In this document: piece after piece, positions 4,561 through 62,900 of the stretch
How positions within the stretch are numbered: position 1 is the first letter of the stretch
Layout: every line of letters begins with the position of its first letter
Assembly: GCF_964204645.1 (NCBI RefSeq)
Contig: NC_134026.1
Span: 22,214,650 to 22,278,649, forward strand
DNA length: 64,000 nt
Reading direction: 5' to 3'
Source: Tubulanus polymorphus
Taxonomy: Eukaryota > Nemertea > Palaeonemertea > Tubulaniformes > Tubulanidae
Position numbers and translations under genes: made by a program
The notes under the pieces: generated by a model
What the model was told of the DNA's origin: nothing
The model's database searches: none
Seen by the model: the letters and a program-made list of their open reading frames with translations, nothing else

Positions 4561-5200
4561 GTTTTGCGGCATTCAGCGAAATTAACCCGGAAGTGTTGTA
4601 CAAGGTAAACAACAGATCCGTGAAATGATATTGAGATTGAAATCATCACAAGATAATCTCTCCTCCATATGCAAACGATGATCTTTTAAATGAAAGGACT
4701 TCTTGCCCTTGCATTTACTTTATGCCAAGGTTTGTTTAATAATACACACACTGTTACTGTTAGGGTAGACAGAGTGACTCTTAGTTACCTTTGTCTTTGA
4801 CATGACATTGTTGACAGTCGGTCTACAGTTCTTTTTTCTCTTTCATTTTCTTTAAGTTCTCAAATTAAAAAGGAAGGTGATATTTTGCCAATGCGGCATA
4901 ACTATTCCGGTGGACCCTGCTTTGCCAGCCCAATGGCTGGTTCCAACATTGACTGCGCGCAGCTTGATATTTTTCATTTGTTTGTTGGCAAAAGTGGTAT
5001 ATACTAACTAAACTATAAATAATGCTGCATTTCAAAATATCCACTTCCGATTTGACATGTCTTAATTTTTCGATGATTAACCTAAATTTTTCTGTAATCT
5101 GTAGCCATATGTTGCAGATTCCGTTATTTTCCGGTTATTTGCTTTTTGGGTACAGCTCCAATTCAATTCATTTTTCAGGTGAACGAACACTGAAGAAAAT
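4561..5200 (+). promoter_or_regulatory. Probable 5' UTR/promoter region of the multi-pass membrane protein gene
   Basis: A TTTTTCAG acceptor ends at 5178. The 22 nt from 5179 to the ATG at 5201 carry stops in all three frames, so coding must begin at 5201 or later. Upstream, ATG 4690 opens a 13-codon signal-peptide-like reading (MKGLLALAFTLCQ) that runs into a GTTTGT donor at 4730. Spliced to 5179 it would make a 21-codon upstream ORF that ends across the main ATG. Whether this exon is used is unknown. Confidence 0.35.
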
Positions 5201-8200
5201 ATGATTCGTGAAAATGACACAAGTGTAGGCAAAGCAGTGGAAGAGCGCAAAGAATTTGCACCTCTTTTGATGCCCGTCTCGCACCCTGTAAAGAAAAATG
5301 TCATTAACTACGAGGCTAATTGCAGCGAAAATGAAGAAACCGCCGAATTTTCTGACAAAGTTTTATTCATCCATCAGAAAAAGACTCGAACTTCTCTCCT
5401 TTTCAACGATTCTTTGATTTTGGTTCTCGAATTTCTTCAACTATTCGCCCTGCTGCAATCGCTTTCCTTACGTTGGCCATGGCCGCCGATGTGGGTGCGT
5501 AATTTCAACTTCTTGATGTTGTTCAACTTTGACGTTTGGGAATTCATTAAAGTTCACACGAACGGAACGTACAAGAGCGTCAAAGATTATTACACCCCGA
5601 GCGACACCGTTCCAATTCCATTCTGGAGCATCTTGTTAACCTGGGGTTTGATTATTGTATTCCTCGGCGTGGCCTATGTCGCTGCCTATATTACACTACA
5701 CAAGAAGAACGGCCCATTCTTATTCGTACAACTGGCTCGTATGCAACGAGTTTACATCATTCTCGTGCAGGTTCTAGCCGTACCGATCGGTGTAACTTTG
5801 GGCAAGTTATTTCACCGTGACGATAAAGGACAACTCGACGTCGACAACAAAGTCATATTTGGAGGTGTCATCCATCTCAGCGCTTACGTCGTCCCTTCGA
5901 TATTGTTTTCGACGTTTTTCTTCGTCGTACCGACGATATTCTTTGTAAAGATCACGCGGCGAGAGACGCTGCGAATGGGCACAAAGAAGCACGAACAATT
6001 CCTGCAACTGAAAGAACTCGAATATAACCACAGAATGGATATGCTCTGGCAGATCGCTCACTATCATATTTTCTCGTCGTTTAAGAAGTTTGGCACGTAC
6101 TACCGGGCTGGTGTACACATTGGAAAACTCATTCTGCTCATAGTCTATGCTGGTCTATTTCAATTCACCCTCCCTCAAGCTGTTGTTGTGACATTGGTAC
6201 TGGCCATCATGCTGGTGACTTTCTGTGTAATTCGCCCATTTAGAGTACGTTCGTTTAATTCCATGTTGATGTTAAACTACCTATGTTTGTCAGCTGTTTC
6301 TTTGATGGGTGCCCTCATTGCCAGTTATAACCCATATACTGTCCAGTCCCCTTGGTTTACGCCGAACTATAGTTTCTGGGTCATCATTCTTATAGCTTCT
6401 ATCTGGTTGATCTGCGCTCTCGTCTTTTTCATTCACATTGCTCTTCGTTATCATGGTTTGTGTATCTGCTTCAAGAGGCCTCTTTGGCCTTTGTTGACAT
6501 CTGAAGGCCTCAATAAACTCGGACCTTACACAAAGAAATACCTGAAAGCAATGCTGAGATCAAGGAGAGTCTTAGGTAGGCTTTTTCTCGTCAGTCAAAG
6601 ATTTATTTCAATAGGCTATGAGGAAATCAGTTCAATTTTCCATCTTATAGGTCTAAAACAGTCCAACATTTGTTCTTTTTTCAGAGAAAACACTTGCCAT
6701 GCCTCCGATATTTGCCCCAGTGCACGACTTGGTTAGAGAAATACGGATTATTAACGCTTACGCTAGAGAAGCGGAATATCTTAAAGACCCTATCCACGAT
6801 TCACTTCTGGACGTTCTCGACGAGTTGATTGATTGCCACGGAGAACTAGCTCCGAGATCTTTGTTTGCAGGTGATAATTGCCTTGGCTAAACTTAGTGAT
6901 AAAACTTGACAATAATTTCCAACAAATATTAGAGAAGGGTTATCATTTGAAATAAATTATCGTTATATTTTCTTTTAGCGAGTATTAAGGATAGTATTCG
7001 TCAGACTAGCGCTATGTTGATGGATATGATGCCAAAGTTTGTTCATTGTTTAGCGCAGCGAGAATATGATTTCTTACTAATGAATCCAGTTAAAAGACGT
7101 CTTCTACTGAAAATGTACTGTATGGGTATGTATAAACCAGTTGGCCTATATCAATTAGTCTTACCTGAATCAGTAATGCAGTAGAACCGGTTTTCAATTC
7201 TGTCATTGATTAGTTAAGGACCTGACTGGCAAAATCCCTAAAAGCCTTCTTGAAGGTGTACTGGTTAATTGAACGCTCAGATTAACGTAAAGATTTGTTA
7301 AAAGCATGTAAGTGAATAATCTCTAGCTGCTTTGTGTTTTGATTGATAGGTGTTTTCCTCAATGGACGTGCGGATAAAGTTAAAAAGAAGCAGGAACTTG
7401 CACCAGCAGTTGAGAAAGTATGGATCCAAAGAGATGAGGATGCAAAAAGTGAGTGCCCATGATGAAATACATAGTATTCTGTGCAATAATGATGCTAGTA
7501 AGAACTACATGATTCCATAATGATAAGTAAATGAAATACTGATTATTGGAAAAGTTAATATCTAATAGTAATTAAATGTTTCCCTGCTTAATCAACTTCA
7601 GTCTTCTGAATAGATGTGTGTGTTTTCAATGTTGCTGTCTTATTTTGAGAGTTTTCCAATTTCGCTCTGTAGGTGAAGCTGGTTATTATGGTGACATGTA
7701 TCCAGAACCAGTTTTACCAAGTTTCCAGCCGTACAATAAGGATGTCTCGGCTGATATTCTATTGAGCGATGACGATGATGACGAGTATCTAGCTATGCTC
7801 GACGAATGGGCTGCCAATAATCCTCTATCGAGACAAGACAGACTGAATGAGGTAACTAGGGTTGATTTAGTTACTAAACAATCATTCTATTACTTAGCTG
7901 CTGTGTATGCTGGAGAGCTTTTGTCACTATGTAGTCAATTCACATTGATAATATAGAAATTATATTTTTATTTTGATCAAAATTTTTGAAAATTTCGATT
8001 GTTTCAATTCTCATACAAACTTATAGAGTTTTAAACCTTTAAGCTTTTTATTTCAGAGCCTGGTGAATTTGTTAGAAGAATGGAAAGATGTTCAATCAGG
8101 ATCAAGAATACCAAGTACTAATGTTACCCCTGAGCCAATGCCTGGCATTTCTAATGAGACCAAACTATTAATGGGTAAATATTCTGACTATTTCTTCGCT

Positions 8201-16370: not shown

Positions 16371-19300
16371 CTAACACTGACAGCCGCTGTTCTGTTGATT
16401 CGGGTTCTCCGTCAGACGCGTGCCCTTCGATTGATTGCTGACGATCGTCGGATCAGAGTCGAGGCTTTCGCTCATTTTGTCGCATATGATATCCACCAGT
16501 CGTTCGAATACGGCTTTAACGTTTATGTTCTCTTTCGCCGATGTCTCGAAAAACTCTAAACCTGAAAATCGGGACAATGATAGAAAAACACGGATTAGAA
16601 AATGCCTTAACAAATATCGACCAATATTCACATCTTCTGAACAATGTCACATTAATGCAGCCAAAAAGGCAGTTAAAATTGGCTACTACACTTCTCTCTA
16701 TGTACATAGTAGCCACGATCGCACAAGCGTTTTTGGCCTGTTCCAAGTTTGGCCAGGAACTACTGTTCACACAGATGCCCACTGGACTTGGTTTGTTTGG
16801 CCCGGCCAAAAACATCGGACCAGGCCCGAGCCAAATTCTAGCATGGGTCAAATTATTGCTACAGGTTTCGGAAGTGACTCATTTCGCTTTGTTTAGGTGG
16901 CTTACATGTGAACGTACTCTCTTATGAGGCATGGGCCAAATCGCCTCCGTGTGATCGCGGCTGATGTTTAAGATTGTGTAAATGGAGAGAAAAGGGTTAA
17001 AGATAAGCAAAATTTGGCATAAACACAGATATAGACATCATCAGTAGGAAGTCAAATTCAGGACATGCATATCGTTGAAGCTAATTGCCCTATTCAGAAC
17101 GAGTTAATCATCTATCTATTACAGTAATATGTATATACATGGATACAATATTAGCATGCTCATTTTGACATCTGATAATTTGATTATTTACAACTATGAG
17201 CAACATGCCATAAATCTACTACGACTGATGTCTATAAGCGCTTCCTTCAGAAATCTGATGTCAACCTGACTACGACCTACACAAATAACCCGAGATAATT
17301 TCCGCCAAATCTTTTAAATGTCGACGTTAAAGTAGACACAGCAGGTGATGCCGCAAACCAACCCAGAGCAGTTACGCATCAAACAAACTCTTTTCGCGAC
17401 AATTAAACCGGAAATAACAGAAAGTTCACTTCACAAGTTGAAAATTAATTAAATTTCCCAGACGCAGTTGAATCGACCTTGCAATTATTTCCACTCCGAG
17501 CAGTAGCTCTCAATACACGCAGAACACCTATTTGATGACGCAGCCTGCAGTGGCAATATTAAAGACTCTTTGATGTTTTCGGATTGTCGTTATTATTTCA
17601 GTTTCGTATACATGACCGCCTCGGGTAGCCTTACATACTCACGTTGTTAATACTTATCGATTGATTAGTCTCCGCACCTTAGAGTCAATTTTACCAGGGC
17701 GGATTCAAAAAATGAATTCTCAGCGTATTGACTTCTACTCGAAATGCCTGAATTCCATAACTTCACAAGGGGAAAACACAATGTATATACAGCAAAACAT
17801 TTCTGGGTGTTGAAATAATTGAAATCTGCCAATTCAAAGAAATCAATTCATTTCAAGTACTGTTCTCCCTATATAACAGCCAGCCGGTGCTACATACAAA
17901 TTGATTCGAATCCATGAGTCGAAATATTATAACGCGCTATTTACTTTATCAGAACCTTAATATTGATTCTCTGGGTGACAGTGCAATGACGGATAATGTA
18001 CCCCGTACTCTGTATGTGCACGCTGATAATGAAATAAATATTCAAATTCAAACAACTGTAACAGAAGATCGCAAGTTTTCTTCTATCAGATCTTCTCCAT
18101 CAGTACTGATCGTACTAGAAATGACTTTCCTATTCTAAAATCCGAATTCAGGTGAAGTGTACTGCATCGATCAATCAATTATGAATTCAAGTTCAATTAC
18201 GATATTCAATTTACTGCAGATGTTGAACAAATTATTGTCGAGTACGTTTAATTTGTGCTTAGAAATGAGGTAAGTTTAAAGATTGGGGACTTCGTCTGGT
18301 GGATGTAATTATTTTCTCATTTTGATTCGCGAATCAATACGCGGTTAACATTCATCGGTAATGGAATCAGTTCGTAATTTGTTCACAACTATCTCCGATT
18401 AATCGAAGAATAGACTAGGAAACAGCGAACCTGTTAACGCACCCTGTATGTCCATTAACAAATAAAACACGCAACCACTAATCGTTGACGCTTTCGTCGA
18501 AATGTCAAATGATTGTTTGCGTTATTCATCTTCTGTAGCGGATACAAGTTACAATGGTTGTCTTTTTATGTAGCATTTCAAATGGCATAATTATTACCAG
18601 GTACTCAATTCATTACTGAAACATACCTATAACCACCATCTAAAACAACCAGATGCAATGGATAAACAAACAAAAACCAATGAGATATCATAATTAAACT
18701 AAAATGGGCTCAGTTCGACTGTTGTGAGTTAGATTTGACGGAGTTGAATTTAGGCTAAAAAGTCTATTGTTTCCCCTTTCTTCTGAGCTTAGAAGTTGAC
18801 CCGGCCAACCGCCAATCTACCCTGTACATAAGTTTTTTACCATAACTATAGCTACAGAAATGAACTGATAACAAATGTCGCAAAGGTGTTACAAAAAGTG
18901 ACCAGGCCAGCTAGGAGAAACAAGGTATCTTTTTTAGCCTTAGCTACAAATCGCAAATTCTAACAACGAAACCACCAGTATAATTATTAGAACCGGTTCT
19001 ACTATTTTCATTGTAAAACCTCAGTTCAATAATCTTGAGAGTTCACCTGATAAACATGAGAATAGATATATACACATCATGACACAGTTCCATAATCATG
19101 AGTTAAAATTTCAGTTACAAAAAATTCAGATCGTCAACTCGACTTTGAACCGAGAAATATTGAACCGGTCTAAGCAAACATTCATAGACCCCGATATTGA
19201 CTTATCTCGAAAATTATGTGAAACCTCCGTGTAAGACATAACTGGTTTCACGGGTGACTACACAACACAATGCTGAATCGAAATCAACTTCAAACTGCGA

Positions 19301-22300
19301 CCCATCCATGCGCACGACGAACGATAGTGAATTAATTTCTAAATGTTCTGTTCCGTTGTTCGCATCGATGAAATTCGCACCAGTCAGAGAGATAAGAGAG
19401 ATTATACATGAAGATTTCAACGTAGGGAATTGTGTGTTGGTTCGTGACATGTCTGCGATCTTCATGCTAAAGTAAATTCAGACTCACGATGAATTACGGC
19501 GACGAGATCTGTGCACCTATGTTTGAAGTTGGTTTACATCATTGACATTGTGCATGTGTGTCCCCTTAAATGGTATTGAAAAATGCTCTATGTGCATTTT
19601 GTTTGTGGGTTAACTGTGCTTAAAATCAGTATGTGCAAAGTATGGACTTCCACAGATAAGATGGCTGTCTCGATGAATTCCATGGTGACATCACCAAATT
19701 ATGTAGTCATTCATTAACTCAGCTAATCGGCAATTAATCGTAATTAGTGATGCCATATGGGGATTTTGAGGAGGCAGCTTTCTTTTCTCTGGAAGGGTTA
19801 TGTCGATGGCAAATCAAAACCTTCCCAAATATGATTTAGAATTGATTTACCACCATGATGTGTCAATAACCTATCCGAATGGCCTCATGACAAGTTGCAG
19901 AATATCTACCGGTAACCATATTCATGGCCAGGGTTGTGATGAGAATTTAGTGGCAAAATGTTTAAAATCCTTTTTGATCATGGGCCCAAATGCCTTTTTG
20001 TCATTCATGCCCCAACATACCAAATCAAAAACAACATGCAAATTCATCCACTGAAAATTACACCTACGATTCATCTACAATTCAAGCAACTGACCAAGTG
20101 ACGAGTTACCATCAAACACTGCATCTACTTAAGGAAAAGGTCACTTCTACCAAGGACTCTAAATCATGCGAGATATAGAGCCCATGTTTCTACTGAACAC
20201 ATATCGTTACCTAGTTGATCTGCGAGCTGTTTTCCACGTTCTGTCGAGACTACGCGTTCGTCTTCAAGGTCGCATTTGTTTCCCACTAGCACGACCTGCG
20301 CGTTGTCCCATGAATATGTCTTGATTTGGGTACACCTGCAATTTACCACACATAAAAGATATGATACTTCAGGGCTTGCATATTCACCATAACCGGCCAG
20401 CGAGCTGTTGGGTACAACAGCCATGTCTCTGTGGTCATTTTTGTTATTTTATTGACCAGTAATACCTGTGCATCACTTGTGCACCTACAAAAAAGCATGA
20501 AGTGGTGTGGTTGCATGATGTCTCCCATCACCATTTTTGAGAGCTGAAGAGTAAGGTGAATGAGGAAAGTATCAGCCACCGAGCAACTAGCGTATGAGAA
20601 TTGAGGAGTACATAAGCCACGTTCACACTATGTCATTTAGAACATTCCAAACTTGAAACGGTCAAATTTTGATCAGACCAAGCATTCATACTACCTAAGT
20701 CTGTTCTAAATTGGCCCATTCCATGTAAAAACAGACTTTAGACTGAGCCAAGTCCAAATTAGGTTAGAACAGACCTTGCCTCTATGTATGAATGAAAAAT
20801 TCGCTTTGATAGCCCTTCCAGACCAAATTAGAACAGTGACAGTGTGAATGCGCCTATAGTGCAGTCTGTTCTTAGTGAGATTTCTCTTTTCAGAAGTAAG
20901 ATAAAATTGAATTGGGAGATCACCAAAATGCATGAGACTACATCGCAGGATTTCTCTTGTTATTGAATCCTAAAGTGCATTTGTTTTCTGGAAAAGAGAA
21001 GTTGACAACACGTCTCTTTTTACTAGCATTGCTAAAATATTTAATGATCAGATTTTTTATAAAATATCACAAGGGGATAGGGTGTCCATAAATGCGAGCT
21101 TAGAAGGGTGGGGGTAGTGCAAAGAGAAATGACTGAAACAGAAACACTGTTTGATGTCCATCTAAAAATCTTTCTAGGAAAAAAATAAGCAACATAAGGA
21201 GATACAATCGTAACGGTAAGATAATCCGGCTTTTTCCCGTCGCTGAAAAGAAACGTGCTATAAGATCGTAGATGAAAAGGCTTTTAAAACATCCAGTTAC
21301 CCATGACATGTATTAACAAACACCAAGGGTGTAGGTATGGTCTGCACACACACATAATATACATATGAATATAGGGAGGATGCAGAAGTGCTCGGTATAC
21401 GTGATCTTAGAAACCTATAACTTATTATGGCATTGCTTTGTTTGATTTCAACAATTATGCAAGAGCGTTACGCACAAAATCAATTCACATTAATTCATCA
21501 CAGAATCTATTCATTTTCAATCTGAGTGCAGGATAGGATATGGAAGCTGAACGGAGGAACGAAAGAGGAAGTTTCTCCTACGTTAGTTTTGTTTGTAATA
21601 TCGATATTTTGCGCGTTCGTAATGCGCAGCAACAAATGCCAACAGCACGAATGGGCGCTAAAGTAAACATACTTTCTATTCTGTTTATCAATGTTCACAG
21701 GTTTGTTCAGAAAGCATCGAAATGGTGTATGACGAAAATAATGGTGTCTGATTAGCTATTTATCCAGTCAATAAGTTTGTGAAAATTTGACATCTGTAAG
21801 CAAAATATTCTGTGATGATAATAACCATAATATCTGTATTTGAAGTATGTGAATTTGCGACGAATTCCCTTGTAGCACAATCATCGTTGCAAAGCAGCTA
21901 CCGTCACAATCCAGCCCCCGCAATGGTGAATCGGCTGAAACGCATGAAGACAGAACACAATTAACTCACGCCAATCCCACTACGGCAATCTCATCAGAAA
22001 GTGTTGCATATCAACATTATTTAGAATGGTTCATTCGAATTTCATTTAAGCCAACAAAGACGTAATGTGCATTCGCTAGTTTTCTCGCGCTCTCTGTCTC
22101 TGGTACGGAGTGGGTAGCGCAATGCGACTGTCGGCTACAAGATAACAACACCTTTGCTTCTGCGCATTTCTTGGAAGTCAACATCAAAATATTTATGAAA
22201 CTTTGATTCAACCGAAATGATTTTTCTAATGTATTTTGACAACACTATCAATGGGGTAAATATCACGGGTGGCATTTAGAGTTAATTGCATTCAGCGTCT

Positions 22301-25300
22301 GCCTTCAAATCGACCATGCTTCTTCTTACCTCGAGTTAAGTTTCATCATGGATCGGCTTGACCTTTATTGCACCTACCTTATTTAACAAACGCAAGATCG
22401 CCCGACTTAAAGCCCGAACCCGAATTCAATTAAAACCTGAGGACCCGTAGATGATCCGTGATACCATCACCAATCCCTGAGGTACTGGCGGCGTACACAT
22501 CAAACATTATCGATTACCAATTACCATTTTGAGATATATATATATTCAAATACGAAATCTATGTATAATCAATGTTAATTTATGCAAATCAAATAATCAC
22601 TTTGACGTGCACTGATTAATCGTAGGGAGAATTGTTTTTGATTTGTGTGATATAGATGTCGTTTATCGTCTGCAAAACGCACCGAAATCAATCGATTATG
22701 GACAGACGTATAATTCACTTAAGAAATGCAGCAGACGAACTTGATATTGAAATATACCCGTCCACGAACGGGTAATCCGTTTAAACCAGATTTTGAAAGT
22801 ATCGTTAATCGATACAAACCGATAGGCCTCGACAAATAATAGGCAAACGTTCATATTACACAGTATCGATAATTTTTGATCCAGCGGCTCCATGTGATTA
22901 GTTAGCAATCCATCACCGAGGTTATTGTCCAACAATGACCCGAATGGTTGGTTATGGAATGTAGAACGTAAAACGACCGTCATTGTTCCGAGGATTTAGT
23001 TGGTTACCTAGATTTTCGGCGAGTTTTTCGCCGACTTCCTTGTTGACCTTGCGGATGTCTTCACGGTCGCATTTATTTCCGACTAAGAGAACCTGTGCAT
23101 CCTCCCAAGCATGGGTTTTTATTTGTGTTACCCTGAGGTTAGGAGAGGAGAGAGAGAGACATTTTATATACAAAGTATATCTGATCGTACAGACACCCTA
23201 GTGGTTTCAGGCATATCAATATGCAACAAGAAACATTAACCCTTTCCTGCCCTGTTGCTAAACTGCTGGCCTCTGATATCAGAACTTAGAAAATGACACC
23301 AAGTATTGTAAATTCTTTCGTTAAAAGTAGTACCGGTATACAGTTCAAAAATCATTTTCTGGATTTGTACAAATTGTGGCCCGGTTCATCACTTAACCTT
23401 CATTTAAAACAAAAGGGCATGAAAGGGTTGAAAAAAATTGAAATACTCATTTGCAAAGGCTCATGAATCATCAAAATTCTTATTTCGAGAGCATAGATTT
23501 ATAGATTTTAAAATGGCAGTCACAGATCTCTGTCAAAGCGATGAGATTAAGGCGGTTGCCGTATAGCGACTTAATCACATCGCTAAATGAATCGATCTCG
23601 ACTCGAGAGACTTCCCGTTCATGATAATTTAATGCTAAGTTAACATCTCTCGCTAACAAGATTTGTTTTCTTTTGCTCGATAATAAGCTGCAAAAATCCA
23701 ATTTTGCATTGAATTTATGAACTGGAAGAAAAGCCAGAAAGACATTATTTCTTCAAACGTGGAAGTACCTTACTTTAAATTGTTAAGAGTGGGCTTCATG
23801 CAGATAGAGGAAACACAGCAATCATTCTCTTCATAATGTTTAATCACATTCGAAAATATCAATATTCAACCATAAAGAACTATCTTGGATATTGATGTTA
23901 TGTTGGCTATGTAAGAGCGAGCTCTGCAGTTGAAATTCAAGCTCTGCAGAATACATTTATATTGATCAGTCAGATCTGATGTTAATTCACCAAAATAGCT
24001 AGTATTTGGTTTTTTGAAACATTAACAAGTTTTATGACCGAACCAAAATGTATTATCAATTGTTTAAAATAGGAGTCTAGAATTCAGAAACCGAGATTTG
24101 TAAATCAAACCAATTTGAATCCCTAGTGATGTGGAATATATTCATTAACTGCAGAACTGGTTCTTGAGTATGTTGCAGTATTATATGGTCTAGTATCCCG
24201 TAGAAAAGCACCTACGAGCTCATAGCTATTGGAGCCAACACATGCCCCCCCCCCCCCCCCCGCTTACGCATTGTAACAATGCTGTTAATTTAGCTGCACA
24301 ATGATTACCAGTAATTTCTCCGTCATGGCAAACGATGCGAAGAAACGATGCAGCCATTCATCACCAGACTCCATCGCCGACGCCGCCGCATCCATGACAA
24401 CGGGCCGCGATTTATTGGCTCTAAGTCACGATATAACATCCATTATGTTCATAAGCTGATCAACAGATTTTTCAATAACGAATGCAGTTATACACGCGCC
24501 CGGATTCAGATTTATTACACGTTACAACCACACAGGGTAGGCTGCGAGTAACTTAAGAGATGCTTTCCGTGCGTTACTAAGGACGTTTTATGCCGGGGCA
24601 TTGGGTGTTGAGAACGTTATCATTAAAAGTTAAAGAGGGCAGCGCTATTGCAATATCATCATCTCGAGAGAAGGTCAAGGGTACAATCGGTAGGAAGATG
24701 ATTTCTTAGAAATGAGTAGGAGTTGCTACTATTATTGTTGCTCAACCGGGAACTTCCCGGAGTCAATGATGCACGCGATAAAAAGAATCGATGGTGCTTT
24801 ATAATTTCATTAGCGGATCAATATAAGGACATCAAATGAATTGATCATTTCTATATTTAGTAAATGAACTTTGTCATCATCAAAGTGAAGGTTCGGCCAT
24901 TGAGTCAGCATCAACGACGACGTACTAACAAGTGAGTCGGTCTTATTAATGGCGAAATTGAATTAGCAGATGACAGGATGAACTGAAAACCCTTCAAACT
25001 CATTCGAGCACACGCAACGAGTAGATCTACGTAAAAGTCGGCGAACACCTACCAATCTTGAACGGCGTTGAATGACTCTTCGTTTGTGACATCGTACATT
25101 AATATGAAACCCATAGCACCTCTGTAATACGCAGTTGTGATCGTTCGATATCGTTCTTGACCAGCCGTATCCTGAAAGTGAATAGAAGAAATGAAAGCCA
25201 ATGCCATTATATCATATCACAGGTGTTTTCATTCGTTTCTATACTCTGACATTTAATAAATAGCTTATCGACTAATTTAAATGTATGGATTAGTCTAATC

Positions 25301-31300: not shown

Positions 31301-32542
31301 CGCCGTAAAAAACCGTTACAATTATGTTTATATACATTCTGCGGCGTAATATAAGGGGTTCTGTGTAAGACGATGTGCACTACATCATCAATATTGGCGT
31401 TTCAAAATAACGATTACAATTGAGAATTTTGGCATCTATTTTGTTATCAAATCTGTTTCATAACTGGTATGTGCATATCGAGGCTAGACTGGTTGCTGGT
31501 TAATTCAATTCAATTATCAATACATTCAAATCCAAAATAAAAATTGATCCTTAGATATCATAAAATTTTTCATTCATTGTCGAGAATTAAGCAATATATG
31601 TATCATTTTTCAAGGCATCAATAAACTTCCAAAATAGTTGTCTTCTTTATTGAAATTCATGATTATGAGTTTGGATTTAACTTCAATACTTAAAATATAT
31701 TGAACTCTGTTTAGTCACAGATTTACACAGAAAAGCAACCGGGCTCCAGTGTTTTTGGGTGAAACTTTTTCACGTTCACTTACAAATAAAGTGTTGATTG
31801 AATTGAATTGACCTTTTGAAATCATGGTTGTTTCTTCTTCCTCTTGCGCATACTGGACGCCTTCATCAGTTTGAAGATTAAGCCAGTTACGCACTTGGAG
31901 TCCGTTAAAGGATATGCCAAATTCATAATCCATTAGGCAACTATAATCAATTAGGTAAACTGTCACAGCTATAGATCTGTGTAAATTCTTATATTCATAT
32001 TCTGAGTAGTTATTTCCACTGCAGGCTTACATGCCCCTCTCTACATTTATTTAGTTTATTCAATACATTATACCTGAAAAGGCTGAAGTGACTAAGTGAA
32101 ATTGATCGTACTAGAATACATACCATTTATAAAGGATAGGTTTTGTTTTAGTTACACGATCCTGTTGTCGCTTTATACGTTATGCAAAATTATCTGTAAA
32201 CCGATGGTTTGTGTGTTTCAAGCTTTATACGCTGGGCCGATGGAAACTTTTTCATTACATAAGATATTCGAGATGCGAGATACGCCATACGCGATAGAGT
32301 TGAACATCTTTACTTACCCATATTTGTAATTTGACTCGTTTGTCTTGTCTGAATACTGTCTTCACTTTGAAATCTATTCCGACCGTGCTGACGAACGCCG
32401 ACGTGAACGAATCATCCGCGTATCGAAATAAAAACGACGTCTTACCGACGCTACTATTTCCGATGATTAAAAGTTTGAACATATAATCGAAATTCTGATC
32501 GGCGGCGTCTTTTTGCCATTTCGAGTCGCTTGCTGAAGCCAT
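16371..32542 (-). CDS. RAB3: RAB3 small GTPase, complete coding region, with two alternative fourth exons
   Basis: Minus-strand coding exons are 32542-32318, 25171-25053, then either 23132-23008 (B) or 20335-20211 (A), then 16561-16371. With one alternative exon the message is 660 nt, 219 residues, the usual Rab3 length. Motifs, numbered from the ATG: P-loop GNSSVGKTS 28-36; switch I STVGIDF 52-58 with Thr53; DTAGQE 76-81; NKCD 134-137 (alternative exon); SAK 164-166; C-terminal CQC for double geranylgeranylation. [20 protein letters not shown] and [15 protein letters not shown] are hallmark Rab3. Rab3 cycles on synaptic and secretory vesicles and binds RIM and rabphilin. An acceptor TTTTCTAG abuts the ATG, so 5' non-coding exon(s) lie upstream (above 32542). 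All junction phases agree (0, 2, 1). Confidence 0.95.
16562..20210 (-). other. RAB3 last intron
   Basis: Non-coding apart from a TIR element at 16710-16963 that sits about 150 nt upstream of the last acceptor. The short reading frames at 17.9, 19.2-19.5 and 19.8-20.2 kb have no recognisable family. Confidence 0.6.
16710..16963 (-). mobile_element. TAGCCGCGATCAC-type MITE, copy 1
   Basis: Starts TAGCCACGATCGCACAAGCG and ends GTGATCGCGGCTG, inverted ends of one TIR. The inside is rich in GGCC/TTTGGCC blocks (GTTTGGCCCGGCCAAAA). Orientation is opposite to copies 3 and 4. About 254 bp with no coding capacity. Confidence 0.7.
20211..20335 (-). CDS. RAB3: RAB3 alternative exon A (conventional sequence)
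   Basis: Acceptor AATTGCAG ends at 20336 (minus strand) and donor GTAACG begins at 20210. The exon is 125 nt, phase 2 in and phase 1 out. It encodes [18 protein letters not shown] then NKCD and [19 protein letters not shown], matching canonical animal Rab3 almost residue for residue. It supplies the end of helix alpha3, the alpha3-beta5 loop, beta5 with the guanine-specifying NKCD, and helix alpha4. It is the exon nearer the 3' end. Confidence 0.95.
20336..23007 (-). other. RAB3 intron between alternative exons B and A
   Basis: About 2.67 kb, non-coding, containing the MITE at 20611-20857. No third exon copy was seen: the NKCD-encoding motif appears only twice on this strand in the window. 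Confidence 0.6.
20611..20857. mobile_element. MITE with ATAGGCGCATTCACACTGTC-type ends
   Basis: Left end TAAGCCACGTTCACACTATG and right end CAGTGTGAATGCGCCTATAG are inverted relatives. Inside, GTCTGTTCTAAATTGG and CCAAATTAGAACAG-type blocks repeat in both orientations. About 247 bp, non-coding, in the RAB3 intron between exons B and A. Confidence 0.6.
23008..23132 (-). CDS. RAB3: RAB3 alternative exon B (divergent duplicate)
   Basis: Acceptor CCTCTCCTAACCTCAG ends at 23133 and donor GTAACC begins at 23007 (minus strand). The exon is 125 nt, identical in length and phases to exon A. It encodes [22 protein letters not shown], then [19 protein letters not shown]. It is identical to A at 26 of 41 codons. 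The G4 motif is intact, there is no stop and both splice sites are good, so it looks functional rather than a decayed copy. Changes fall mainly after NKCD (L/R, E/I, V/K, S/N, T/K, R/V). It probably arose by tandem exon duplication. Confidence 0.93.
23236..23433. mobile_element. piggyBac-like MITE
   Basis: TTAACCCTTTCCTGCCC at the left and GGGCATGAAAGGGTTGA at the right form inverted ends of about 16 bp with TTAA/TTGA flanks. piggyBac elements are known to insert at TTAA and often start CCCT. About 198 bp, non-coding, in a RAB3 intron. Confidence 0.55.
24245..24261. repeat. C17 homopolymer
   Basis: Seventeen consecutive C in an RAB3 intron. The length is prone to sequencing error. Confidence 0.9.
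25359..25410. repeat. Short near-perfect hairpin
   Basis: GCACGATAAAATCAGGAAT (25359-25377) pairs with ATTCCTGATTTATCGTGC (25393-25410) with one bulged A. The loop is 15 nt and itself contains AAGGA-C-TCCTT. It could be a tiny foldback element or a hairpin RNA precursor. Confidence 0.6.
27576..27884 (+). mobile_element. TAGCCGCGATCAC-type MITE, copy 2 (left end missing)
   Basis: Closely matches copy 4 from AAATTGGCACGGATCAGGC onward and ends TTGTGATCGCGGCTA. The first ~20-40 bp, including the left TIR, are absent. A fragment of the 154-bp unit follows directly. Confidence 0.7.
28042..28117. repeat. 38-bp direct tandem duplication
   Basis: Two identical copies beginning GCATTTGAACTCAGTGAGCA at 28042 and 28080. 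Confidence 0.9.
28714..29120 (+). repeat. Left arm of a long inverted repeat
   Basis: Reads GGAAGTTTATTGAGGTATTG, then TTTTGGATTTGAATATGGAT, GCAACCAGTCTAGCC, TGCCAAAATTCCCAATTGTA, and ACAGTTTTTACGGCGTC. All of these recur in the same order on the opposite strand at 31312-31631. The left arm has an extra AT-rich stretch at about 28895-29010. Confidence 0.75.
29228..29461 (+). other. Orphan 77-codon reading frame inside the long inverted repeat
   Basis: Reads [20 protein letters not shown] and continues with a normal-looking composition up to a possible GTAAGC donor near 29379. There is no recognisable family and no good acceptor upstream. It may be a remnant of an element bounded by the inverted arms, or chance. 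Confidence 0.2.
29622..29926 (+). mobile_element. TAGCCGCGATCAC-type MITE, copy 3
   Basis: Starts TAGCCGCGATCACACTGGGA and ends ATGTGATTGCAGCTA, about 305 bp, flanked so that TA is the only shared dinucleotide. Lies within the stretch bounded by the long inverted repeat. Confidence 0.75.
31312..31631 (-). repeat. Right arm of a long inverted repeat
   Basis: Reverse complement reads GGAAGTTTATTGATGCCTTG, TTTTGGATTTGAATGTATTG, GCAACCAGTCTAGCC, TGCCAAAATTCTCAATTGTA and ending near GGTTTTTTACGGCGACC, in the same order as 28714-29120. Confidence 0.75.
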
Positions 32543-56979: not shown

Positions 56980-59900
56980 TCACGACATGATAGTCAACGT
57001 CACAATCCCAGTTGAATTTTTTAGAATGTTTACAGCATCGTCGTGCGTCGCTCCATCTAATGGCTGTCCATTTACGGCCAGAATTTGATCACCACGGTGT
57101 AGATCCCCACATTCCGCAGCTGCGCCCTGAGCAAACACCGTTTTGACGTAAATTGGAAGATCTCCGTGCGGACTGCCGTAGCCACCAACTATCGAGAAAC
57201 CAAGTCCAGCAGGACCACGTCTCAGGTTCACTATTTTCACCTCGGGAGGCCTGAAATCAGATCAATGAATGTATCATTAAACATTTCCATTCTTAGAACA
57301 AAAGAATTCTCTTACTGTTGACAAAAACAGTCCACATTCAGATGAATTTCAATAAATTTTGAATGTATTCAGATTATCAACTTTTGACGTTGAAAATCGA
57401 TATGAGAATTTCAGTTTTATATTCAGGCTGTACTTATCGTGGTACTACAATGTCTTTTCTGAACATTATAACAAAACTAAGATTTGGTTTTCTCAAGATT
57501 CACTGATTTTCAACAAAATAACTGTGTCGTACATTTGAGAAAAAATAACCTCCTCTTACCCTAGATCTTCATCATGATCCTCTTCTTCATCAGCAGAAGA
57601 TGCTATCTTGCGGTGGCCACGGTTACTTGCATTGCTGTTCTTAGACTGCTGAGAGGAGAAACTGTCATTGGCGGCATTTCTGTGCTGTGGATCACCTATA
57701 AAAGAAGATGGAGGAAAAAGCATGATGAAAGGTGACATCACATGGCGTCCAGCATTTCATGATGGTGGAGAAGTCAGCAACTATATTTTTCTCAATCTTG
57801 ATTCTAGTCTAGAGCTAAGAAGCTTCTAACACTTCGAGTCTGGCCATTGTTGATGTCAACTGTATTTTTGTCGAAGGCTGTGTCATTGGGGATAGAAACC
57901 TGCCACTAAAAACTTTCACAGCTTGGATGATACAACTCATGTACAGCCATTAGTCAAACTGCCAGTCACACAGAACAGGGCTATTCCTGGCCCTGTTCTG
58001 TGTGTCTTTGAATCAGGAGAAAAATGCCATTAGATTAATGAGACTAGGGTATCCAATATATCAGGGAAGGCATTTACCTGAGTATACTAAAGTTTTAGTG
58101 TAATATTCATACCTGGAGTGACTTCTAAAGTTACTGTCCCTTTGGCTTGAACTAGCAAATTAGCAGCTTGAGTCTGAGAAAGGTTTTCAGTTGAAACTGA
58201 ATTGATCGCAACGATATGATCTCCAACCTAAAATGAACAAAATCTCATTATTGTAAGTCAACAACCGTAAATCGATTCTAATTCATGATTCACAGGATTC
58301 ACTTAAAGGGTCCGAAAAATGTCCTTAAGTCTCCCAAGTTGTCTAAAGACCTATTTCAATTTAGTCCAGTCTATGGTAAGTTTAATCAGTGTAACTGGCC
58401 CCTGAAGACATCATATGAATGTGAACGGAAATCATTTGACCTAACAAGTACCATTAGATTTTTTGATTTAGCTGCCGGTCCGTTTGTGCTCATGCTCGCA
58501 ATGATAACGGGTGTATTGCCTAATGGACTGCCATGTCCACCGGCGATACTGAGTCCAAGTGAGCCACTCATATCTCGCACGAGGTGCACAATTCTCGTCA
58601 TTTTGTGACTCCCCTGACTACTACCACTCACATTGCTGTTTCCTGAAATCATTCAACAAAAAGCACGTTAAAACCAGCGCAATAAACAAGCATCGAACGA
58701 AATAAGAATTTCTTTCATTAAATCTTTTAATCATTTGACCCTATGTAAGAGTTCTTTTACAAATTTCGGCTCAAATTCGTCGGATCATCTACGAACATGA
58801 CATGCAGTGCTATGTTCCCTAAACTAATCACATGAAAAAAATCATAATGACTTCTTATATCATGCAGATACATTCATATAAAAATAAATAAGAAATTGCT
58901 AACCTATCCTAATAAACAGCTACTTTAATTAACATCATATCTCTAAATCCTATCATCTGCTAAAACCAACTCTAAACATGAAAGCATAGTACATTATCAA
59001 CAATGCATAATGATTATTATAATGATGATGAATGATGAAAAAAAAATAATTTCTGATACAAAATAAAGTCCTTTAGAACATGCAAAAAATCAATTGGATA
59101 TGCTACATTGCAATATCCATTTTCCATAAAGGGAATCTCAGCAACTTTCACTTTTACAAAAGTTCTAGTTCATAGAAATAAAGCGACTATATACTTTCTG
59201 CGTTTCTAACTCAATGAATAGGAATAAGTAGCATTCTGTTTTACGAATGAAAAATTCACAATTTCAACATCTGACATCAAGAAGCCGTCAAAATCATAGG
59301 CTTGATTTCAAAGGCTTCCATCATGCAGGTATACTAATTCGAGAACACAAAAATAATATGTGTAAACATACAGATAATAGCTAACCTTCCATGGAAGATT
59401 TTAAATCCACAAGTATGAACATAGAATAGGCGCGAAAACGAGACTATTTAATGTTGGAATGCATTAATTTTTGCTCTCAATATGTAAGCTAGATTTAAAA
59501 ATGAAATTTTAGCAATCGTATCAAAAATTGTCAGCCCTGTTTATACCTTAACAGTAGAAAAATGCTGGCCACTGATCAAAATGTATTCATTTTACTCTGA
59601 TTGTAAAACATTTACTCTGAATGAATTCACAAGCTCAGATTTCAGAAAAGTGAATGTATAGAGATCGTGGTATTTTGGTTAATGAATTCAAATATATTTC
59701 TAAAAATGATTTGGCAACGACAATAGTCAGGTCCTCAGTAACTTTTGGATGATGGTAATCCTGTGAAAAAAAAACAACAAAGAAAGTGATCAGACAGTAG
59801 AACATCAGTGATATAAAATATTGAACTTTTGTGCACAATTCCCTAACTACCGAAAGTCCGTACCAAGAATATATACATGCATTACCAATTTAAACCTATA

Positions 59901-62900
59901 TCAATTCAGCAAATCTGCTGCTTTGGCAAGAAATGATAATAACAATACAGTAACCGATTAGTGATCAGGTTTGACAATCATCATTATTAAGCACCGTGTC
60001 CCACTATTCCTACAAATTAGACACAGATTGATCGGACTTAAGGTAAATAAAGATAGAAACCATTGAAAGATTTTCGAGATGTAAAAACGAACACATCTGA
60101 TTCATCGAAAGACCTGTACAAGCTAAGATGCACAATGTGTAATTTTTTGTAATGGGTGATTTTACCAACAGAATCATCGTGCTAAACCCCATCAATCTTA
60201 TTCCTCAAATATGTCCATATATTTGAAGCAGCAGCAGCAATTTTCAAGCAGGTTCATAAAATGCATATGATGATGGAGCAAAGATATATTTGTCAACAAC
60301 AAAGTTTGCACACTTTTGTTTACAGAACTGACAACCTGAATGTACATGTAAAGTATCTTGAATCAACACCTAAAAACACCTGGGTTATTAATGAGTAAAT
60401 GGAGTAAAATTGAAATTGCATTATACCGGTACTTCATTGGATAAAGCTTGTCTAAAAATGAGATACAAAAGACAATTTAAATCTTCAAGGAAAAGGGGAA
60501 GAGAGAGATAGATGTTGAATCAAGATGACATAGTTTTGACACAGTAAACCTGATCATCATGCTTCTTGTTCTGATAACCAGGTGCACATTGCTTATTTCA
60601 CCTGATCTCATACTCTGCATCCACATAACTTTGGTAAAACTTTATAAGAAGAAAAATATATAAACCAAACTTAAAAAAACGAAAACCAATTCAAGTGCAT
60701 CAGTGAGTCAGGGTGATACTATGTGAAACCAAGAGTTCTAAATGAAAAATTTGTTATTGTGGGGTATTGTTTTTAAGGGTGATGCATTCTCTGAAAATCT
60801 AACTGTATGAGCAATCCTCGTAGGTCTGATGTAGTACAGCACATATAGTGCAATACAAAACTGAATTCAATACAGAAACTCAGAAAGGATCTCTAGAAAG
60901 ATTTTAAAGTTCTTCTCAGGTACATCCATGAAGATGGGTAAGATGGTGAAATTCATATGGAAGAATTCATACTACAAAAGCAGATAGCAATTATATAGAT
61001 AAATATGTATATGCAACACTAGGAAGAATTCTTAAACCATATGTGGATGCGATGAAAAGTATGTACTGGCACATGTACATGTACATGAAATGTACCAGAT
61101 CGAATTTTATGAAATGTCTAAAATGCATGGATGTGTACCGGTAATTCAAATTGAAACACACCTTTTGGATGTTTTCCTTTATTTTTCACATTACTCGCGC
61201 TGGACTCAGATTTTTTCAGACCTCGATCGCTTGCATTACTCGAGTTGCGTCTGGATGATGATCGACTGCTGATCTTTAATCTTCCAATCACTAGCGTCAC
61301 TTTCCCCATCAATGTCTGTAAAGACAATATTGAAAGCGGTCAGGAAAATTGGATGTACTTTAATTTGTAAATATGACCATTTTTGGAACATCGCAATACA
61401 TTTAGATGACTGCAGCCGAATAAAAACATCTTCATTCTACGGTATCAGGATAGGTAGGATTAATACTTCATGTACATACTTTTAACACAGTAGCTGCATA
61501 ATCTTGAGTAACACCTTTCATATCTTCACCATTCACAGCGAGTATTTGATCACCTTGCATCAGTCTCCCATCAGCCTCCGCCACTCCACCCTTTACCTGG
61601 TTGGAATAATGAATGAAATCATTTCAAACAGGCTTATTTGTGGAAATGATAAGAAAAATTAGTACAAATTAGTTACAAATTAGTAGAATTAATACTTACG
61701 ATGTCTGAAATGAACACACCGACATCATTCTTTTTGCCCACAATGCTGAGACCGAGTCCTTTGTTTGGCTTCTTCATCAGTTCAACAGTAAAAACATCGT
61801 AAAAGTCTTCATCTTTGACTTGCGCGTCATCACGTAGAACGATCATACGTACGACAGGCGGCGTCTGACGTAGGACTTGTATAGCGCGATCGTGAGATGC
61901 CTCGCGTAGATCATCTCCGTTCACCTAAGAATAATTTCAGCATCATGAATGATCATTATTCCTGCATGACGGAGCATAGAAATGACAAAATATACCTCTA
62001 ATATTTGATCACCCGCCCACAGACGTCCGTCTTTCGCTGCAGCACCATCTTCGTATACTTCATGAATAATTATAGCACCCTGAATGTAATAAATCATTGA
62101 GGTGATTAGATCAGCGAGATGAATAAAAGGTACTTTCGGCAGTGCTTGGACCATGATTGATATTGCATTCACAGTGTTTGACCATGAAGATGATTAAGTA
62201 TATCATTATCGGGTCACCTTTTTCTCATTGGATATTAAAGGTTTTTTTACTTACAAGTAAGGTATCACTTCCGCCTACTATGCTCAGACCTAGGCCTGAC
62301 TTTCCTTTCTGGATTTCGATCACAGTTTCATGTCCAGGAGATATCACACATGTTGCCGGATCACCCTGTATATTTGGCGTGGTAGTAACATTACTGATTG
62401 AACGTTTTTCTTCTTGGTTTGATCGCTGGTCAGGATCTGGGATTTTATCTGAATCGGGGAAATAAAAAAACATAGTAAATTATGGCATTTATTCATTGGG
62501 CCTCTGCAAAATAGATTCTAATGCAACAGAACACCAAAAACTAACCACAAGTGCAACCTCAGATGAATGCTGGTAGGAAAAAAGTATAATGGGTATCTTG
62601 GGAGAAGTCAAATAATTCATGGTATGAATGGGGTACTAGTGATTCATGAAGGCAACAAATTCAATTTTTAAACTATTCTAAACAAATCTTTTCATCAATA
62701 TCCTTAATTGATGCTGCACTATAAGTCCTGTGGCACAAACTAAGTTTTCAGATATTAGGATAATGCTATTTGCACAGGAAAAAAGTGAGCCATATCAGTG
62801 AGTTACTAAACAATTGTCAACCCTGCATAAACCTAGGGAGATCAAAATCTGACCACCAGCACCAACTAAAAAAGTGATTGTAACCTCATGCAGTCACAAT

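Follow-up and report, generated by a model that had tools for sequence, protein, structure and literature searches.

In the RAB3 gene of the nemertean Tubulanus polymorphus there are two versions of the third coding exon, and we consider it probable (close to four chances in five) that an old tandem duplication of this exon has left two functional alternatives, B or A, one of which is taken into each productive message. The pair is best read as a case of mutually exclusive splicing imposed by the reading frame; exon A would give the conventional Rab3 protein, and exon B a Rab3 with an altered patch. We favor the use of exon B far more strongly than any named consequence of that use.

The RAB3 gene and its paired exons

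The window analysed here, a stretch of 64,000 nt, corresponds to C2:22214650-22278649 of a 267.8-Mb, 77-contig assembly, and the RAB3 gene, of a kind that helps control secretory vesicle release, lies on its minus strand (Table 1). The GCQC at the end of the protein is a C-terminal cysteine motif, and the first nine rows matched by isoform B in the PDB are all Rab3 chains. The N-terminal exon finds one place in the assembly at 100% identity, the next match being at 52%, and when the assembly was queried with isoform B and with exon B, which gave 43 and 10 matches respectively in searches that score the best candidates, neither a second RAB3 locus nor another copy of exon B appeared. The ATG of coding exon 1 follows immediately upon an AG, so that a non-coding exon probably lies upstream. 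The original prediction had placed A and B as fourth coding exons; they are actually the third, since the exon at 32542 begins with the start codon, and they would be the fourth only in a count that takes in a non-coding first exon. Elsewhere in the window, two open frames on the minus strand (56980-57261 and 61921-62193) resemble PDZ domains by eye, and a 517-residue open frame on the plus strand (5183-6736) has many hydrophobic stretches and is possibly a membrane protein.

Table 1. Positions in the window of the RAB3 coding exons and of the stop codon read when B is spliced to A
Feature	Position	Strand	Details
RAB3 coding exon 1	32318..32542	minus	ATG to ...LQIW, 75 codons
RAB3 coding exon 2	25053..25171	minus	119 nt, DTAGQE... 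to split Trp
Alternative coding exon 3, copy B	23008..23132	minus	125 nt; acceptor 19/21 pyrimidines; donor TAGgtaacc
Alternative coding exon 3, copy A	20211..20335	minus	125 nt; acceptor 12/21 pyrimidines; donor TAGgtaacg
In-frame TAG of B-to-A splice	20286..20288	minus	75 nt before A 3' end
Last RAB3 coding exon	16371..16561	minus	ends GCQC then stop

Direct reading and translation of the two exons bears out the prediction that they are equal in length and phase, with an NKCD motif in each; both also have AG/GT borders and open frames. Both complete the split Trp codon, and each ends on the G of a Gly codon that the intron interrupts. They share 82 of 125 nucleotides, with identities of 28, 34, and 18 of 41 at the three codon positions respectively; the 26 of 41 identical residues claimed earlier need a small adjustment, as whole codons give 25 of 41 and the figure of 26 is reached as 26 of 42 when the border Gly is included. 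A query with exon B recovers exon A within the window (E 1.5e-14), and across the whole assembly exon A again ranks directly behind exon B itself (63%, E 1.7e-10); the likeness is thus not due to chance. A third, decayed copy near position 20474 (DAQVLLV in one frame) was considered and rejected: aligned locally with B it scored 27, where shuffles averaged 24.2 and 183 of 1000 did as well; with a profile of both exons, 293 of 400 shuffles did as well; and the nhmmer matches that come after A and B have E-values of at least 2.1.

The reading frame restricts how the two exons can be combined, as had been predicted. Joining B to A brings an in-frame TAG at nucleotides 48–50 of exon A, and skipping both shifts the last exon so that reading ends 14 residues after the Trp; this second stop lies in the last exon, and the message would give a truncated protein. 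Because joint use and joint skipping both break the frame, a productive message would use A or B, and only one of them. The TAG of the double-inclusion message lies 75 nt before the junction, and by the 50–55 nt rule for nonsense-mediated decay such a message would probably be cleared. B could act mainly as a regulatory exon that lowers RAB3 output by way of B-plus-A inclusion and decay, an explanation that gains from the location of the TAG and from the fact that B comes first in gene order with the better pyrimidine tract. However, an exon of this type need keep neither its frame nor its residues, yet B keeps both, and we regard it as highly improbable that lowering output is its main role.

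The pyrimidines in the 21 positions before the acceptor number 19 for B and 12 for A, compared with 18 for exon 2 and 16 for the last exon. Donor scores from a consensus table are 77.3 for B, 77.5 for A, 77.6 for exon 2, and 87.5 for exon 1; the donors of the pair differ little from each other and score like that of exon 2, and weak donors thus do not mark out the pair. Competing RNA pairings among the three introns did not rise above shuffled sequence, which counts against the preferred reading: the strongest duplexes were matched by 35, 40, and 49 of 100 shuffles. Some inverted repeats were also listed. Past exon A, on the minus strand (20169-20006), there are three GCATG motifs, one of them TGCATG, at 42, 172, and 201 nt beyond the A donor. 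As many are present in 68 of the 6370 300-nt windows of that strand, and the cluster was found after inspecting seven motifs in six places; it is a possible lead for RBFOX-type control. We also note 17 consecutive G (minus strand) at 24245-24261, in the intron before exon B.

Divergence and constraint of the two copies

Comparison with five PDB Rab3 chains (3A, 3B, 3C, 3D, and a chain named Rab-3, which we take to be fly Rab3) distinguishes the two exons. Residues are numbered as in Rab3A, counting the Leu of DTAGL in 1zbd as residue 81. Exon A matches these chains at 33–36 of 42 positions and exon B at 25–27. Exon A was predicted to be the conventional Rab3 sequence, and indeed it keeps all 28 of the positions that are invariant in the five chains; B keeps 23 of these 28, which are not a formal defining set, and departs at Y123H, S124A, D126E, N127D, and V144K. 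In relative rate comparisons there are 8–10 changes found only in B and 0–1 found only in A for each outgroup (chi-square 5.4–8.0, the outgroups not being independent). By these comparisons A is the conserved copy and B the fast one.

The introns flanking A and B agree at the first five bases of the donor and at the acceptor CAG but beyond that look unrelated, suggesting that the duplication is old. The divergence of the exons themselves is considerable at synonymous sites (pS = 0.74, near saturation), and the dN/dS-type comparison proposed for B, made pairwise against A, gave a pN/pS of 0.33 (bootstrap 0.19–0.51). We simulated neutral divergence by holding A to synonymous change and letting B mutate freely. 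With 80 mutations per branch the third-position identity is matched (mean 17.9, against the observed 18 of 41); the mean number of identical residues is then 11.7, the frame stays open in 12% of runs, and an open frame together with at least 25 of 41 residues was reached in none of 4000 runs. With 40 mutations per branch the observed state was reached in 74 of 4000 runs, but this setting is a misfit with too little divergence, its mean third-position identity being 25.1 against 18 of 41. At a threshold of 26 residues, where the whole-codon match is 25 of 41, the simulations gave 0 of 20000 runs from each start. Among the residues that B keeps are NKCD, Arg143, Val145, and Gly150, the last three of which are common, though not universal, in other Rab rows.

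These observations bear on the possibility that B is dead, a remnant of the duplication that splicing now passes over. It is the faster copy, and disuse that began recently would leave little trace in its sequence; nevertheless, its frame is open, its borders and its rich pyrimidine tract are intact, and its residues have been constrained while synonymous sites approached saturation. We consider a dead relic very unlikely. Judging from its sequence, B is not a decaying copy; its protein sequence has been constrained through much of its past, although its use may have been lost recently. Our preferred reading is that the duplication took place long ago and would have given two functional copies, both of which are probably spliced.

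The altered patch and its possible partners

The isoform with exon B would have the same N-terminus, switch regions, NKCD, SAK motif, and C-terminal cysteines as the isoform with exon A, in keeping with the original prediction of shared switch regions, membrane anchor, and NKCD; it would differ in the alpha3-beta5 loop, the beta5-alpha4 loop, and alpha4. There are 16 changes between A and B, and 10 of these are in the 20 residues after NKCD. The description of B as charged and divergent after NKCD is accordingly apt for the divergence, but the difference in charge is slight, with 10 of 20 residues charged compared to 8 of 20 in A. In the papers cited here we saw no evidence of effector contact by the region after NKCD.

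The W-D-N residues of the alpha3-beta5 loop are described as lying in the second RabCDR, with which RabSF3 overlaps, and as part of the rabphilin-binding pocket (PMC4552854, PMC9308819). At these contact residues B keeps the Trp, D126E is conservative, and N127D adds a charge, with Y123H and S124A immediately before them. In the fly, Rab3 with the substitution WDN124-126AAA is reported to localise normally and to rescue fully, as do mutants of the other two CDRs, in a single assay that scores active-zone composition and not rabphilin binding (PMC4552854); Rep15, another Rab3 binder, is described as binding without use of the CDRs (PMC9308819). The suggestion that the isoforms differ in effector choice is weak, as the Trp of W-D-N is kept and the fly triple substitution rescues fully.

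It is also possible that both isoforms are made and are largely redundant, B being a tolerated variant. We hold this to be a substantial possibility, though somewhat doubtful. The complete rescue by the triple-alanine fly protein in that one assay is in line with redundancy, as is the account of the two Rab6 isoforms as largely redundant (PMC7538953), whereas the title of one study assigns non-overlapping roles to the Rab6 isoforms, and B alters five positions that are invariant in the five Rab3 chains. The retention of an old second exon also suggests some distinct use. The least certain part of our interpretation is that B adjusts how partners or regulators bind, rather than duplicating the function of A.

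A gene that we name rabphilin-like is present in the assembly, where an exon at C2:5144208-5144285 reads RSGAWFF, so that a partner of the CDR pocket would be available. Three exons of this gene were recovered (C2:5142029-5144285; L082, L083, and L084), the third of which reads VWKRSGAWFFKG.

Some comparisons hint at a direction of change in B. Searched alone, exon B scores 30.8 bits with Rab8A and 35.3 with the SEC4 chain 6o62, compared with 25.8 and 27.0 for exon A, and the score with Rab3A (1zbd) drops from 76.3 for exon A to 48.2 for exon B; with exon B the remaining SEC4 chains reach only 23.5, and Rap1b drops from 35.0 with A to 26.4 with B. The H-A-W-E-D of the B loop resembles the H-A-N-E-D of human Rab10 and of one exon in the assembly. 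Of the 16 changed positions of B, 11 are covered in human Rab10, which agrees at 5, and 11 in Rab8A, which agrees at 4. Among 26 rows from the organism's own genome (30 loci fetched), some of which read into introns, 0–4 of the changed positions agree, 19 of the rows having all 16 covered; one row (L075) agrees at 3 of 6 covered, a higher fraction than that of Rab10, and the organism's own Rab10-like row agrees at 3 of 15 when read across an exon edge, while the exon proper would give 5 of 11 by eye. The likeness to Rab8 and Rab10 is post hoc and involves few positions and no null. We think it unlikely, although worth stating, that one RAB3 gene makes a conventional Rab3 together with a second form in which the alpha3-beta5 loop and alpha4 have come to resemble more closely those of Rab8, Rab10, and Sec4, such that one splice decision would couple the same switches and anchor to other secretory partners.

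Precedents in other genes and genomes

The nearest relatives of this arrangement are found within and outside the Rab family. The two forms of RAB6A, RAB6A and RAB6A', reportedly rest on a duplicated exon. They are the closest precedent, in that one Rab gene yields two isoforms through one swapped internal segment, an event common to human and mouse (PMC1950890); they are forms of another Rab, however, and differ in three amino acids (PMC3578815), as opposed to 16 of 42 positions for the RAB3 pair.

Beyond the Rabs, a human survey predicts mutually exclusive pairs by length, frame, and similarity, together with junction reads, and finds that for many of them the frame is lost when both exons are included (PMC5740500); a second human survey describes convergent tandem exon duplications in vertebrates and invertebrates (PMC9741552). 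Like the surveyed pairs, RAB3 A and B are homologous, neighbouring, in the same frame, and of like length, and their equal length and phase, borders, open frames, and homology are what the first survey uses to predict such pairs. The surveyed pairs differ in that their use is backed by junction reads or annotation, whereas A and B are known from genome sequence alone. The main texts of the two surveys mention no Rab gene under the words searched, a human small-GTPase splicing survey lacks the term 'mutually exclusive' (PMC9714508), and the exon passages of a study of C. elegans Rabs describe no exon pair of this kind (PMC3504004). No title among the literature matches listed concerns a Rab3 exon pair; this is weak evidence, as in one set none of the 15 entries names Rab3. 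Predicted isoforms of this type may be present in NCBI annotations.

A search of bacterial and archaeal genome contigs recovered 21 loci at 29–68% identity. The sole split match (L041) was rejected as a Rab3 exon pair, its second half not being Rab3-like. This locus (1016-1460), in a record whose title names an archaeal MAG contig, codes for a Rab whose reading is broken by intron-like stretches, and is presumably a eukaryotic Rab11-type contaminant. Viral contigs yielded five stretches, none of which was confirmed.

Exon swaps of this type are thus known in other genes, and the RAB3 pair adds a Rab3 case. Vertebrates also have several Rab3 proteins, Rab3A–D, with the same switches and type of anchor as the RAB3 isoforms (as seen in PDB chains), but these are encoded by separate genes and all four have YSWDN where isoform B has HAWED. 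Swapping one exon within a single RAB3 locus would instead yield Rab3 diversity by splicing. As the two isoforms would be identical outside 42 residues, the gene may provide a natural exchange of the alpha3-beta5 loop and alpha4 from which their role in a Rab protein can be read.
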